The notes beneath the pieces were generated by a model, which worked only from the letters and a program-made list of their open reading frames with translations, was not told where the DNA came from and ran no database searches. Both the position numbers and the translations under genes were made by a program. From the NCBI RefSeq assembly GCF_900104475.1, contig NZ_FNJR01000013.1, positions 1 through 64,000 of the forward strand: 64,000 nt of DNA, given 5' to 3'. The stretch comes from Actinopolyspora xinjiangensis (GTDB lineage: Bacteria; Actinomycetota; Actinomycetes; Mycobacteriales; Pseudonocardiaceae). The stretch's first letter is position 1. The number at the start of each line of letters is the position of its first letter. Below, piece after piece: positions 33,837 through 62,398 of the stretch.

Positions 33837-36731
<2,895 letters not shown>

Positions 36732-36804
36732 CCGAGAGTTCCGCGAGGCTGTCTAATACGGTGGGCTCTTTACGTGACCGACTCCGAGAGGGGTATACGA
36801 GCAG

Positions 36805-37089
36805 ATGCTCACCATCAGCGAGAACGCGGCCGAGGTCATCAAGCTGATCTTGGTCGGCGGAGAGTCCCCCGAGGGGGCCGGTCTGCGTATCAGCTCGCCC
36901 GAGGGGCAGGCTTCGCCAGACGGTCTGGAGGCGGCTGTCGCCAACGCTCCGGAGGACAGCGACCAGATCGTCGAGCAGTCCGGTGTGCGGGTCTTCCTGG
37001 ACGAACAGGCCGCCACGGTGCTCGGGGACAAGACGCTGGACGCCGAGCGGGACGACAACGGGGAGCTCGGCCTGACGGTCAGTGAGTGA
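36805..37089 (+). CDS. HesB/IscA-like protein lacking cysteines
   Basis: A 94-residue protein from ATG 36805. It begins MLTISENAAEVIKLIL and has the GAGLRIS beta-strand pattern and a VFLDEQAATVLGDKTLD segment, the fold signature of the HesB/A-type Fe-S carrier family. The three cysteines that bind the cluster in IscA are all absent, and the protein contains no cysteine at all. It therefore probably does not carry a cluster. Similar cysteine-free versions occur in actinobacteria without known role. Confidence 0.75.
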   Translation: MLTISENAAEVIKLILVGGESPEGAGLRISSPEGQASPDGLEAAVANAPEDSDQIVEQSGVRVFLDEQAATVLGDKTLDAERDDNGELGLTVSE

Positions 37090-37131
37090 CCCGAGTACGG
37101 CAGTGCCGAGGTGGGGTGGCCGCGGTGGCGG

Positions 37132-38007
37132 TCACCCCACGCGCTGTTCCAGCAGGTGTCGGCACGTTTCGATCAGACGTCGCCGCAGCGCGCTCGCTCG
37201 TTCGGCGAAGGCCCGCTGCTCGCGGACGTACTCGGCGCGCCCGGGAGCCGTCTCGATCGCCACGGGTGAGTAGCCGAGTTCGCTGAGGTCGTAGGGACTG
37301 GCACGCATGTCCAGCTCGCGGATCTCGGCGGCCAGCTCGAAGGCGTCGGCCGTCAGCTCGGCGGGTACGAGCGGGCCGAGCTTGTAGCACCACTTGAAGA
37401 CGTCCATGTTGTTGTGCAGGCAGCCCGGCTGTTCGAGGTTGACCCGGTCCTGCTGGGTGGGTTGCAGCGTGTTGCGCGGCCGGGCCGCCGTGCTGAAGAA
37501 CCGGAACGCGTCGTAGTGGCTGCATTGGATGCGCATCGACTCGACGACTTCGTTCGTGCCCTGGATCCCCAGGCGCAGCGGCCATTCCGAGTGCCGCAGC
37601 TCGTCCTGGGTGAGTCGGTATACCATGGCCCACTCGTGCAGCCCGAAGCAGCCCAGCTGTGCCGGACGTGACTCCGTGGCGCTCAGCAGGCGGTGCACGA
37701 AGTCGGCGGTGTCGAGCAGTCGAGGAGTCAGCGCCTCGGGCGCGACCATCACACCGTCCGGCGTCTCGCTGTAGCCGCGCCGGTCGAGGAACTTCGCGCC
37801 GCCCTCCAAGGCCACGCCGAAACCCGGTTGCCAGCGCTCCAGCCTCGACGGGCGCTGGGTGTAGTACGTGAAGAGGAAGTCCAGCACCGGGTGCTTCTCG
37901 CCGCGCCGCTGCCGCTCGCGGTGCGGCAGCGTCCAGTTCCGTATCCGTTCCAGGTGAGCCTGTTCCCTGGCACGCCACGTTCGTTCGGACAGTACTTCGG
38001 GTGGCAC
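37132..38007 (-). CDS. Conserved actinobacterial protein often labelled 3-methyladenine DNA glycosylase
   Basis: A 291-residue protein from GTG 38007. The sequence follows a well-conserved actinobacterial family: HPVLDFLFTYYTQRPSRLERWQPGFG, PAQLGCFGLHEWAMVY, MRIQCSHYDAFRFF, NLEQPGCLHNNMDVFKWCYKLGPLVP and ELDMRASPYDL. Databases often call it a 3-methyladenine glycosylase, but no glycosylase helix-hairpin-helix motif is visible and I would not rely on that name. Conserved His and Cys residues suggest metal binding. No Shine-Dalgarno precedes the start; a TATCCT lies about 8 bases upstream, so the mRNA may be leaderless. Confidence 0.7.
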   Translation of the reverse strand: MPPEVLSERTWRAREQAHLERIRNWTLPHRERQRRGEKHPVLDFLFTYYTQRPSRLERWQPGFGVALEGGAKFLDRRGYSETPDGVMVAPEALTPRLLDTADFVHRLLSATESRPAQLGCFGLHEWAMVYRLTQDELRHSEWPLRLGIQGTNEVVESMRIQCSHYDAFRFFSTAARPRNTLQPTQQDRVNLEQPGCLHNNMDVFKWCYKLGPLVPAELTADAFELAAEIRELDMRASPYDLSELGYSPVAIETAPGRAEYVREQRAFAERASALRRRLIETCRHLLEQRVG

Positions 38008-38405
38008 ATGGGGAAGGATAGGCCACCCGTGCGGCGTCTCCCCGGAGTGGTGACGTCGGAAGTGAAGCCCGTTCGGGCTCGTTCGGTCGGTGAGTGCGGG
38101 TCGTGCCCGCCGTCCGGTGCGCCGGTTCATGCCCGTCGCGTTTCGCGAGGTGGCGTCCCATTCTTACTTATCGGAAAATCCGCACCGAGACGTTTTCCGT
38201 AATTCGATAAATCTGGCGCTCGCCCTTGATGTATTTTTTGGCCGAAAAGGATTTTGCGGGAGAAGAAGTGTCTATTTCCGTTGTCCAGGAAACTTCTGTG
38301 CCCTGTCCGGCGGGCGAGGTTTCCCCGGGCGACAGGCTGTGCTACGAGATCACAGTGGACTCCGTGTGCAGCCGAGCCGGATAGATCCGCGCCGAACCCG
38401 GTTGA
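38008..38405. other. AT-rich intergenic region with long imperfect hairpin
   Basis: Base composition drops sharply in GC at about 38155-38290 compared with both flanks. TTATCGGAAAA at 38168-38178 pairs with TTTTCCG...CGATAA at 38193-38210 to form an imperfect hairpin. No gene was recognised. The region lies downstream of the SAVED-like gene and may mark the edge of transferred DNA. Confidence 0.5.
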
Positions 38406-39602
38406 TCAAGCGTCAGCCGTATCGTCGCCGGCACCGTCGGCCTCATTCCCGTGTCCGTTGCCGTTCACCGTCACCGAGGTCGCCTCCGGGACGGGTTGGG
38501 GTGGGGTGGTCGGCTGCGATTCCCGCACCCGCATCGGCACGTAGCGCCGCTCGGCCTGGTCGAAGTTCATCAGATGCGTGCCGCGGAAGAACGCGGGCGC
38601 TTCCTGCGAGAGGTGCCAGCCGAGAGCCAACGCGACTGACTTGGGCACCATCGCCACGACCACGAGTTCCCGCTCACCCGCACCGGCCTTGATCATCGCC
38701 AGCTTCTCGGCGATCTCCGGACCCATGCGTTCGAGCTCACCGCGCCCGAAATTCGGCTGGTAACCGTTCCGCCCCGGAAGGTTGCCCCGACAGGTGAGCG
38801 TGTGGACGGTCCCCACCCCGAACCGGGCGAATTCCTTCGCGGAGAAGTTCTCGGCCTGCTTCGTGAACGCCAGCCACGCACCGACCAGGCTCGCCTGCTG
38901 ATCGGCGACGCTCGAATCGGCTTTGACTAGGCTCACCGGGTCGGTGTCGAGCGGGTACTCGATCTCCACCCGCGAGGACGAGCCGCCGTTTCGCCGCGTC
39001 TTTCGTTCGAACGGGGTGGATTTCGGGGGCGTGCCCTGGTTCTGCGGCTGCAACTCCAGCATTCGCAGACTGTCCGGGTGCGGCAGGGAGAATCCGACGG
39101 CCAGGGCGATGGGCCAGAACATGTTCGGCGCGACCGAATAGCCCGTGTCGTCACGATCGGTGTTGATGGCCTCCTCCAGAGCCTGGCCGAGCTCGCGACA
39201 GGGCTCCACGCAGTCGATCACTCCACCGTGGAAACGGGACTTGAGGTCGACCCACCGGGTCAGCGAACGCATCGACATGCGCCGGTCCCGGGCGGTGGCG
39301 AGTGGCTGCTCGTGCCGGTTGGGCATCGACTCGTCGAGCAGCTGCACGTAGAACAGCGTGCCCCGCTGGTCCTGCGCGATCGCCCGCAGCCCCAGCACCA
39401 CCAGTAGCAACAGCACGGCTGTCAGGAAGATCCCCCACCGCCACGGCACGACCCGGCCGTCGTCGGAATCCCTCGGGAAGAAATCCTCCACGACCAGCGC
39501 CAGCGAGGCGGTGATGAACGCGCCGAGTATCACCACGGACCAGTTGGAGCCGATCATGGGCAGCTGGCCCCAGCTCGGCAGGACACGGCGCAAGGATTTC
39601 AT
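38406..39602 (-). CDS. Two-TM membrane protein with SAVED-like nucleotide-sensor domain
   Basis: A 398-residue protein from ATG 39602 (AGAGGGG upstream). Two transmembrane helices (about 21-39 and 55-76) anchor a large cytoplasmic domain. That domain shows two similar Rossmann-like halves: GYSVAPNMFWPIALAVGFSLPHPDSLRMLELQP, then ELVVVAMVPKSVALALGWHLSQ followed by FFRGTHLMNFDQAERRYVPMRV. The pattern is that of SAVED domains, which bind cyclic oligonucleotides in CBASS and type III CRISPR ancillary effectors. TM-SAVED proteins are thought to act on membranes. The assignment is by eye. It is divergent from a RAMP gene. Confidence 0.55.
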   Translation of the reverse strand: MKSLRRVLPSWGQLPMIGSNWSVVILGAFITASLALVVEDFFPRDSDDGRVVPWRWGIFLTAVLLLLVVLGLRAIAQDQRGTLFYVQLLDESMPNRHEQPLATARDRRMSMRSLTRWVDLKSRFHGGVIDCVEPCRELGQALEEAINTDRDDTGYSVAPNMFWPIALAVGFSLPHPDSLRMLELQPQNQGTPPKSTPFERKTRRNGGSSSRVEIEYPLDTDPVSLVKADSSVADQQASLVGAWLAFTKQAENFSAKEFARFGVGTVHTLTCRGNLPGRNGYQPNFGRGELERMGPEIAEKLAMIKAGAGERELVVVAMVPKSVALALGWHLSQEAPAFFRGTHLMNFDQAERRYVPMRVRESQPTTPPQPVPEATSVTVNGNGHGNEADGAGDDTADA

Positions 39603-39707
39603 CGATACCCCTCTCACGATCCGCACGCGTTCGATAACCTACCGCAACAGATCATCATCGTGGTGTGATCACGCGGACATCGAGCAGGCCCGCTGGGGAG
39701 GCATCGC

Positions 39708-40556
39708 GTGGTCGAGACCTTCGTCAATCCCTACACCTTCGTGCCGTTGCCGGACGCGGTACCGAAGCGCTCCGCGCCGCACGACCACAGCGGCCGGGGC
39801 GATCTGTTGTCCGGCACACTGACCGTCACGATCACGGCCGAAACCCCGCTGCTGGTGCGCGGGATCACCGCCGACGACGAACAGCGGCCCCGGTTGCCGC
39901 GACGTCCCGACGGCACGGTCATGATCCCGGGCTCCTCGCTGAAAGGCGCGCTGCGCTCGCTGCACGAGACCCTGGCCGGGGGATGCCTGCGGGTGTTCGA
40001 CAACGAGTTCGCCCCCGGCTACCGCGCCTCGGCGAATTCCGGCGAGATCGGCACAGTGCGGCTGGCGGTGGTGGTGAGTCACGACGACGAGGACTCACCC
40101 CCCGAGCTGGAGCTCTGCGAGGAGGGGGACACGCGGACGCACCGGCTGCACCAGAACGAGCTGCTCCGGCTGCACAGCGAAGAGGCCCCACTGACCTCCG
40201 GTGACAGGCTGGAAGTCACCTTCGACGAGCACACCGGAAAACCGTCCGAGGCCACCCGCTCCGCCGAAGGGGACTGGGTGGTGTTCCTCAGCGACGCCGG
40301 TGTGCGCGACAAGAAATGTCCCTACCGCGCGCACATCCGCAAGCTGCCGGAGGTGTCCGACCGGGTTCGGGTCTCCCAGAGGTCTGGCAGACCTATCAGT
40401 ACGCGGCCGATGGCGCCGACGACCTGCGGACCCGACGGGGCGCTCGACCAGGACGCCACCATCCAGCTCGTGCCCCACCGCCGCACCACGGCACCCTTCA
40501 TCGGGAACCGGGACAGCCTGACCGGCGAGTTCGGGAAGCTGCTCGGCTCTGCCTGA
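39708..40556 (+). pseudogene. RAMP-superfamily (Cas7-like, TIGR03986-like) gene, frameshifted and truncated
   Basis: Starts at GTG 39708 with GGGGAGG upstream. FVNPYTFVPLP at the N-terminus, LSGTLTVTITAETPLLVRG, and the RAMP hallmark IPGSSLKGALRSLHE at residues 73-87 identify a Cas7-type crRNA-binding fold of the TIGR03986 sort, usually far longer than the 282 codons here. At about 40377 the frame loses one C in a CCC run. The expected continuation PEVWQTYQYAADGADDLRTRR is then in another frame, and the original frame resumes coding-like sequence near 40435. The rest of the gene is missing, ending near an IS110 relic. Confidence 0.68.
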
Positions 40557-40609
40557 GCGGCGAGCGCGGCGCGGCGGACGAAACCGCCATCGGTGGATGA
40601 GCGGTTGGC

Positions 40610-41694
40610 GCTGTTTCCGCCCGAGTGTGCCTTGAACTGCCGCTGCACTCAGCCCAATTCCGACCGCCTTCAGGGCAGCGGCGGAAACGAGACGACTCGC
40701 GATTTCCATGCCTGTCGGTCGGGCGAGGTTGTGTGGGGGCCTCTATGGGGTGGGCAAGAGGTGTTGGTGGAGGGTGGCTGTTTTTGAGCATGGCGTGGAG
40801 GACGTCGTAGCGGCGTCGGGCGAGGCAGAGTAGGGCTTGGGTGTGGCGTTTGCCCTGGGTGGTCTTTTTGGCGTAGTAGGCCCGTGAGGGTGGGTGGTGC
40901 AGCGAGGCGAACGCGGCGAGGAAGAAGGCCCGTTTGAGCTGCTTGTTGCCTCTTTTGGCGGGGTGTTCGCCGCGGGTGCTGCTGCCCGAGCTGCGGGTGG
41001 TTGGTGCTAGCCCTGCGTAGGCGGCCGGGTGGGTGGCGGTGGGGAATTGGCTGGCGTCGCCGACGTCGATGAGGATGCGGGAGGCGGTCGGAGACGCCGA
41101 TGCCGGGCATCGAGGTCTCCGACCGTGGAAAGAGGGGCCTGGCGGCAGGGCCTCGAGCTGGCTTTCCACGTCGTGGCGCTGTGCCAGCACGGTGCGCAGG
41201 CTGGCCGTGAGGTTGGGGATGACCACTCCTGCGGTCTCGGTGTCTGCCACGACTACGGTCTGCTCGGCCGGCGCGGTGCGGATGTCGGTGGTCAGGCGGT
41301 CGGCCATGTGTGGGGCGTGGTGACGCAGTAGCTCGGCCAGGCCGTCGTGCCCGGTGTCTCGTAGTGAGGCCGGGGTGTGGTGGGCAGACAGCAGTGTCAG
41401 CACGGCGGGGTGGTCCAGGCGGGGTCCGAGGACGCGTTCGAGGTGCGGGTGGATCTGGGTGAGTAGTCCGCGTAGCCGGTTGCGTACGCGGGTGGCCTCG
41501 GCGGCGAGGTCGTCGTCGTGGCCGCACAGCATGGACAGGGCGGCCACGGTTTCGTCATCGGGGGCCAGCTCCCGCGGCGTATGGGGCATGGTGCGGGCCG
41601 CGTCGGCGATCACACCCGCATCCCGGGAATCGGTTGTGGCCTCTCGGGGGTAGAGGTCGGCCAGCCGCCCCTCGGGGCGACGCTCCAGCCTCTA
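40610..41694 (-). pseudogene. IS110 transposase, N-terminally truncated and frameshifted
   Basis: The C-terminal Transposase_20 region is clear: TASRILIDVGDASQF, HPAAYAGLAPTTRSSGSSTRGEHPAKRGNKQLKRAFFLAAFASLH, and AYYAKKTTQGKRHTQALLCLARRRYDVLHAML. Before it, the helix-hairpin-helix segment ETSMPGIGVS is in a different frame, so two indels flank about 41090-41140. The N-terminal DEDD RuvC-like catalytic domain is missing: coding similarity starts at ADLYPREATTDSRDAGVIADAARTMPH and an in-frame stop lies just upstream. The element cannot move by itself. Confidence 0.78.
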
Positions 41695-41774: not shown

Positions 41775-41832
41775 AAGGCCGGGAGCCCTCTCGCGGGATC
41801 ACCCAAAAGGTAATGGGGCGGCCATCGTGGAG

Positions 41833-61855: not shown

Positions 61856-61894
61856 CGGTCCGACTTCTCGGTGGACAATCCCAGCGCCTCGGCC

Positions 61895-62240
61895 ACGAGC
61901 GGCCTCGGTCACCTTCGCGGTCGAGAACCGGGCCTTCCTGCGACGGGTGGTGCGTTACCTGCTCGACGCCGGCATCGACCAGTTCCTCGATCCGGGCTCG
62001 GGTGTTCCACGGCGGGCAATGTCCACGGGATCGCCGGTGAGCGCGATCCGCGGGTACGAATGGCCTACGTGGATCACGATCCGGTCGCCGTGGCACACGC
62101 CCAGCGGCTGCTGCCGGACTCGCCCAACGTCACGATCACCCAGGGCGACGCGCGGGACGTCACGACGGTGCTGAACGCGCCGGGCGTCGCCGGGCTGCTC
62201 GACTTCGACACCCCACCCCGCCGCTCACGCCAACGGTTAC
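61895..62240 (+). pseudogene. SAM-dependent methyltransferase (DUF574 / Methyltransf_19) remnant
   Basis: Two pieces of an actinobacterial DUF574 methyltransferase lie in different frames. AVENRAFLRRVVRYLLDAGIDQFLDPGSG (about 61917-62003) is followed, after a frameshift near 62005, by GNVHGIAGERDPRVRMAYVDHDPVAVAHAQRLL and VTITQGDARDVTTVL. Similarity ends at GLLDFDTP near 62210. The N-terminal YLLGGKDNF region and the C-terminal half are missing. Not functional. Confidence 0.72.
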
Positions 62241-62398
62241 GCGGTCGTCGGGTGATGCTGAGACCGGCGCGGTGCGCGGCCCGGAGAGCCACGGTTTCGG
62301 GGCCAACCTGGTGTCGTCCCTCGTGGGCGTGAATCGGAACCGCTGGTTCGCGGGCGGCGTGGAGCGGTCTCAAGGCCGCCCGGTACGGCCACCGTTTC

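Follow-up and report, generated by a model that had tools for sequence, protein, structure and literature searches.

Positions 38,406 to 40,556 of the 64,000-nucleotide stretch of Actinopolyspora xinjiangensis DNA analyzed here (the window) raise the question of what system once linked a gene for a membrane-bound SAVED-like sensor to the RAMP gene with which it lies head-to-head, and why the first gene is intact and the second broken. The window very probably holds the decayed remains of a type III-D CRISPR-Cas locus that had an RT-Cas1 module for adaptation, worked via a messenger made by Cas10 and left an orphan gene for a two-transmembrane SAVED protein (TM-SAVED). Gene content, gene order, the deletions, the cyclase motif and family membership are the observed part of this explanation.

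The gene at 38406-39602 is, judged by its sequence, that of a two-TM SAVED protein belonging to a catalogued type III CRISPR accessory family. Its product matched the PADLOC models PDLC01166 ("membrane associated CARF"; E 6e-145, in two stretches of which 1-190 was the best), PDLC02014 (SAVED6--SAVED_TM; E 1.3e-91, residues 13-371 covered) and PDLC01093 (C3a205; E 4.6e-81). These matches are strong and indicate the same family with no difference in kind, the only distinction being the orphan state of the window copy. Two hydrophobic segments near the N terminus (residues 23-41 and 58-76) both exceed 1.6 on the Kyte-Doolittle scale and give the protein its N-terminal transmembrane helices; a third, weaker peak spans residues 313-331. 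The initial annotation had called the protein two-TM and SAVED-like and its gene intact, and the segments, the SAVED6--SAVED_TM match and the unbroken reading frame agree with that call.

The SAVED domain itself was found through profiles of the family. Taken alone, the window protein fell under the cut-offs of both Pfam SAVED (E 0.059) and NCBIfam SAVED (E 0.0011, 18.5 of 33 bits), and a Pfam SAVED search of the whole genome at E 0.001 gave no match. In the family alignment (A3; 14 of the 20 loci described below, without those of G001, G005, G047, G054, G131 and G240) and with E values up to 1 admitted, all 14 members matched Pfam SAVED (best 2e-7) and 12 of the 14 matched NCBIfam SAVED; four family loci (in G070, G014, G131 and G047) passed the Pfam gathering score. 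A sequence search for solved-structure relatives of the window protein returned none, the best match (E 1) being unrelated. Profile-profile alignment by hhalign to 13 SAVED domains over the Pfam cut-off (14 loci had been taken and L076 was dropped, its frame not matching the others) covered part of the soluble domain with a weak score (P 0.049, probability 1.1%). The closest copy of the window protein is that of a related genome, G009 (93% identity). At the 49 columns that are invariant in the 12 other aligned members the window protein deviates twice, one deviation being shared with G009 and the other, R239L, being its own; given these two changes, it may be losing function.

The ORF on the other side, 39708-40556(+), encodes 282 residues from a GTG start. 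It matched the type III RAMP model TIGR03986 (E 3.5e-30) over model positions 1-172 of 568 and Pfam RAMPs with an E value of 2.2e-9, and the RAMP fragment is 96% identical to residues 1-223 of the G009 RAMP protein. The early end of the TIGR03986 match and the frameshift that follows confirm that the gene is broken, and the head-to-head arrangement with 105 bases between start codons was likewise as first described. The intervening region, 39603-39707, shows four differences from that of G009, counted on the printed sequences. At the right-hand junction the BLASTN matches to the G009 RAMP gene and to the tail of the last G009 operon gene overlap at 40432-40449. By this comparison 39708-40556 begins as the RAMP gene, runs through a frameshift and, across a deletion, continues into the tail of the last gene of the operon, with about 6.1 kb lost relative to G009, the cas10, Csm3-like, cas5 and cas7 genes included.

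The orthologous G009 locus (L011) is intact. It contains, in order, a CRISPR array, the small last gene of the operon, genes for Cas7, a Csx10-like Cas5, a Csm3-like protein, Cas10 and the TIGR03986 RAMP and, divergently, those for TM-SAVED and Cas6; beyond Cas6 lie an array, RT-Cas1, Cas2, another array, a PF04672 methyltransferase gene and a further array, followed by orthologues of the genes that flank the window locus. The G009 Cas10 (464 residues) has a palm domain and the sequence GGDD, which we take to be the cyclase motif of Cas10, and a Pfam search found no HD domain in it. HD domains are rare in type III-D Cas10 proteins (3%) according to an excerpt of PMC11229360. L011 proteins matched the PADLOC models for Cas10, Cas5_IIId, Cas7_IIId and the Csm3 of III-A/III-D, and the best PADLOC match of the RT-Cas1 was a III-B model. 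With its Csx10-type Cas5, multiple Cas7 proteins and HD-less Cas10, L011 is type III-D by gene content, as assigned with PADLOC and Pfam and not with a dedicated subtype caller. In relatives the TM-SAVED gene is divergent from the complex genes, and the loci of G009 and G148 also include an RT-Cas1 module; a literature search for RT-Cas1 with type III-D in Actinobacteria gave no match. The window differs in that the complex is gone: by BLASTN, 38366-40449 is a single island co-linear with G009 (TM-SAVED, intergenic region and RAMP start) between two large gaps.

The gap on the left begins within cas6. Residues 1-29 of the G009 Cas6 matched 38348-38434 by tblastn (79% identity, E 7e-9), and what has been lost relative to G009 is the body of cas6, RT-cas1, cas2, the methyltransferase gene and arrays. 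On the far side of the junction, the repeat at 38294-38322 plus the DNA down to 38174 is a 72% match to the last repeat and outer flank of the third G009 array. Window tiles that did not touch either of the two repeats of Table 1 had local-alignment scores of at most 24. A pattern search for the repeat found 38294-38322 (one match versus none expected), and a second pattern matched neither repeat in the window, the other repeat being one base short. Compared with a functional type III-D locus, the window contains no Cas10 match and no CRISPR array, only two single degenerate repeats; the original statement that it has no Cas10, cyclase or array stands for Cas10 and the array and needs to be amended for these repeats. 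As the genome is a draft (G000; 33 contigs, 5.04 Mb), misassembly at the junctions retains a small probability; both, however, lie within one contig, C18.

Past the repeat at 40703-40737 the window lacks about 1.9 kb that in G009 includes the outer array, and an IS110-type ORF sits in its place, co-linearity with G009 picking up again at window position 41819 (BLASTN). The second IS110 copy of the genome is only partial (83% over 222 bases). A fragment of an S-adenosyl methyltransferase gene (PF04672) is also present in the window, at 61871-62329(+), and is of the same family as the 310-residue protein encoded between two G009 arrays.

Table 1 Features of the decayed locus (window coordinates) and of the orphan TM-SAVED genes of another genus (locus coordinates)
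Feature	Position	Strand	Evidence or remark
Degenerate CRISPR repeat	38294..38322	-	Local-alignment score 48; pattern search
Left deletion junction	38323..38365	.	Loss of about 5.8 kb relative to G009
First ~29 codons of cas6, overlapping the TM-SAVED end as in the intact locus	38348..38434	-	tblastn with G009 Cas6
TM-SAVED effector gene, 398 aa from ATG, frame intact	38406..39602	-	PADLOC matches, two N-terminal TM segments, G009 identity
Region between TM-SAVED and RAMP start codons, presumed divergent promoters	39603..39707	.	105 bases in window and G009
5' fragment of TIGR03986 RAMP (Cas7-like) gene, frameshifted after codon ~223	39708..40449	+	TIGR03986 match; G009 co-linearity
3' tail of last (small) type III-D operon gene and a little beyond	40432..40576	+	88% DNA identity to G009
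Incomplete IS110-family transposase ORF, low end over remnant sequence	40498..41613	-	Pfam PF02371, end of PF01548
Degenerate CRISPR repeat beyond operon end	40703..40737	-	Local-alignment score 45
Orphan TM-SAVED genes of two species in another genus, each immediately behind an amidohydrolase gene	L067:9399-10466; L065:9358-10422		

Within the genus, TM-SAVED was present in 7 of 10 genomes (that of the window included), and TIGR03986 and the Cas10 palm domain each exceeded their cut-offs in six. Among 249 sampled genomes of the bacterial family, 17 encoded TM-SAVED at a total of 20 loci (an earlier search of genome contigs with narrow patterns had given only four), and we examined these within at most 20 kb (12 kb for G047) by tblastn with the proteins of G009 and of a second operon, C19, taken up below. 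A complete six-gene operon with cas10 and RAMP genes adjoins TM-SAVED at 13 of the 20 loci, in place of the RAMP fragment that stands alone in the window; at 12 of the 13 (the exception is G247) TM-SAVED is head-to-head with the RAMP gene, and start-codon spacing was 96-105 bases at the ten loci measured, the window among them. The initial annotation had read the window pair as a possible remnant of a type III CRISPR-like locus and proposed a search of related genomes for intact neighbors; the cas10 and further RAMP genes found at these 13 loci bear out the reading. No operon gene was found in the 20 kb examined around TM-SAVED at four loci (G005, G014 on C1, G186 and G070 near 2.319 Mb). The remaining three loci are the window, G131, where the RAMP gene is in pieces and the Cas10 match is some 13 kb distant, beyond the examined stretch, and G240, where TM-SAVED is split over two frames and the examined stretch gave no RAMP or Cas10 match. 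Conversely, TIGR03986 occurred in 26 of the 249 genomes, 14 of which also encode TM-SAVED. From the 13 of 20 operon-linked loci and this converse count, therefore, the link between TM-SAVED and the RAMP operon is strong but not obligate. The wider RAMP-SAVED system that had been envisaged is real, but by gene content it is type III-D CRISPR and not a new kind of system.

The neighbors also bear on whether the locus could be the remnant of a CBASS system that lost its CD-NTase and kept a Cap14-like effector. The combination of TM helices with SAVED is shared with Cap14 of CBASS, which is described as a toxic TM-SAVED effector (PMC10419184, in excerpt). In relatives, however, the neighbors of TM-SAVED are type III cas genes and its partner is Cas10, not a CD-NTase. 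The SMODS cyclase domain (PF18144, the one cyclase family searched) was found in none of six genomes and the CD-NTase neighbor that would mark a CBASS effector was not seen, so that a CBASS origin is disfavored and, in our estimation, extremely improbable.

Given the decayed type III-D locus, we asked how old the decay is. Between the window and G009, TM-SAVED gave a dS of 0.139 and an omega of 0.253, and the RAMP fragment gave 0.118 and 0.167. Three flanking genes (window 35064-38130 versus L011) had dS values of 0.30, 0.46 and 0.75, and DNA identity to G009 was 94-98% in the island and 75-90% in the aligned flanking pieces. Because the flanking genes are far more diverged than the locus, we infer an exchange of the locus between lineages that postdates the split of the flanks, and deletions of recent date. 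The suggestion that the sensor had been kept for another use is not supported for the window: by both dS and omega the dead RAMP fragment is no less conserved than TM-SAVED, and an intact TM-SAVED hence needs no special cause. Its intact state may reflect nothing more than the recency of the deletions. The 27 amino-acid differences between the window and G009 TM-SAVED proteins divide into two assigned to the window, two to G009 and 23 unassignable, and those of the RAMP fragment into two, none and seven, respectively. A special retention of the window TM-SAVED was not supported, owing to the equal conservation of the dead fragment and to the paucity of differences that can be assigned to a branch.

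The genome may encode a source of signal elsewhere. G000:C19 carries a complete six-gene type III-D effector operon that includes a GGDD Cas10, the sole Cas10 palm-domain match of the genome, and its own TM-SAVED, 54% identical to that of the window. Because neither cas6 nor cas1 gave a match within the 20 kb around this operon, its activity can only be assumed. Judging from the genome, the orphan could answer only the messenger of this operon, if any. The orphan might accordingly be maintained in trans as a second effector of C19, a proposal to which the completeness of that operon with its GGDD Cas10, the preserved TM-SAVED frame and 105-base upstream region and the omega of 0.253 versus G009 lend some credence. 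The RAMP fragment, however, is equally well preserved (omega 0.167), C19 already has a TM-SAVED of its own, the window copy has acquired R239L and, with 23 of the 27 differences unassignable, only two can be placed on each branch; we consider maintenance in trans rather unlikely. A plasmid origin of the window locus was also considered and set aside, as the locus had no match in a plasmid collection from which near records may be absent.

Orphan copies elsewhere in the family provide a further view of what follows loss of the operon. In G005 the operon is absent as a block of about 7.1 kb, the DNA being co-linear with that of G001 until just before the TM-SAVED start. The G005 genome gave no match to TIGR03986 or the Cas10 palm domain, and its TM-SAVED frame is open. 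The G005 protein has nine derived changes versus four in G001 (eight are unassigned), a hint of relaxation, although its pairwise omega values (0.263 and 0.331) are similar to that of an operon-linked pair (0.329). Two species of another genus, G070 and G186, have a common orphan after an amidohydrolase gene (81% identity, dS 0.459, omega 0.249), with no CRISPR-like array in the 20 kb around either copy. Because the dS of the orphan is 0.459 and that of the neighboring amidohydrolase gene 0.296, the two genes may have had different histories. In that genus the orphan is found in 2 of 12 genomes (nine at least 90% complete, three under 90%). A complete type III-D operon is present elsewhere in G070 and also in G014. 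In G186 (91% complete) the sole Cas10 match fell below the cut-off (23.3 of 27 bits); it lies in a frame of 677 residues and, like the weak second matches in other genomes, presumably represents another cyclase-like protein. On a tree of 18 of the 20 loci (without G131 and G240) the orphan label needs at least four changes, and 199 of 500 shuffles gave a value as low; that is, orphans are not clustered. The tree carries a warning of long branches, including beside the G070/G186 pair.

These orphans could be taken to mean that exaptation has turned TM-SAVED into a membrane sensor that stands alone and has no relation to CRISPR. In favor are the four of 20 loci that have no operon gene within the 20 kb examined, the G070/G186 orphan with its omega of 0.249 at a dS of 0.459 and the four unclustered changes on the tree. 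The decay in the window is recent, however, and has left both leftovers alike, the G005 orphan hints at relaxation, G070 and G014 (two of the four orphan genomes) also have a complete operon elsewhere, the amidohydrolase-linked orphan is confined to 2 of 12 genomes (nine of the 12 at least 90% complete) and the long-branch warning falls beside the G070/G186 pair. Exaptation thus seems distinctly improbable. A broader proposal, that TM-SAVED was repeatedly released from III-D loci (in the window, G005, G014 and G070/G186) and that at least one lineage is under purifying selection as a membrane sensor of another nucleotide signal, is tentative and in our judgment doubtful.

A different TM-SAVED arrangement was noted at L060:9308-10807, which encodes a protein of 499 residues in all with a C-terminal extension. 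Genes for PNP_UDP_1 and NUDIX/NrtR proteins are nearby, a CRISPR-like array of four repeats follows about 1.6 kb downstream, and no type III-D operon gene was found in the 20 kb around it.

To return to the decayed type III-D locus, its working form can be outlined as follows. A crRNA-guided RAMP/Cas10 complex, with GGDD and without an HD nuclease, would recognize phage RNA and make cyclic oligoadenylate, and the divergently transcribed TM-SAVED would putatively bind this messenger via its cytosolic SAVED domain. The ligand-bound protein may then oligomerize and disrupt the membrane such that growth stops before phage release. Activation by the Cas10 product, oligomerization and membrane damage would be the likeliest working mode; the promoters, the ligand, oligomerization and membrane damage are the parts that we infer. 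A membrane role of transmembrane SAVED effectors in type III systems is given as proposed, not shown, in an excerpt of PMC9704534. The type III-A TM-CARF effectors Cap1 and, by the same account, Cam1 mediate depolarization controlled by cA4 (PMC12642688, in part). These resemble the window family in being membrane effectors under cyclic oligoadenylate control and differ in subtype and in sensing through CARF or a CARF-like domain instead of SAVED. The window has lost the complex, the adaptation genes, Cas6 and most of the array sequence to two deletions of about 6 kb, and an outer array region is gone as well.

The opposite logic has a precedent in Panoptes, where a miniature Cas10 (mCpol) inhibits a 2TM-beta effector (PMC12657230, in excerpt), and TM-SAVED could by the same token be inherently toxic unless restrained by what Cas10 makes. 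The sensor here is SAVED, however, and not a beta-barrel. An open TM-SAVED frame also persists in G005, which gave no Cas10 palm match, and this persistence fits a ligand-activated and not a ligand-inhibited effector; default toxicity is in our judgment highly improbable.

The window shows an ordinary decay of a known kind, and further interest is limited to the orphan sensors that recur. The intact sister locus allows the decay of a type III CRISPR locus to be followed cleanly, and the comparison shows that the gene for a membrane effector can persist after the complex supplying its signal has gone. Should the orphans of the other genus prove functional, a cyclic-nucleotide signal beyond CRISPR and CBASS would be indicated.
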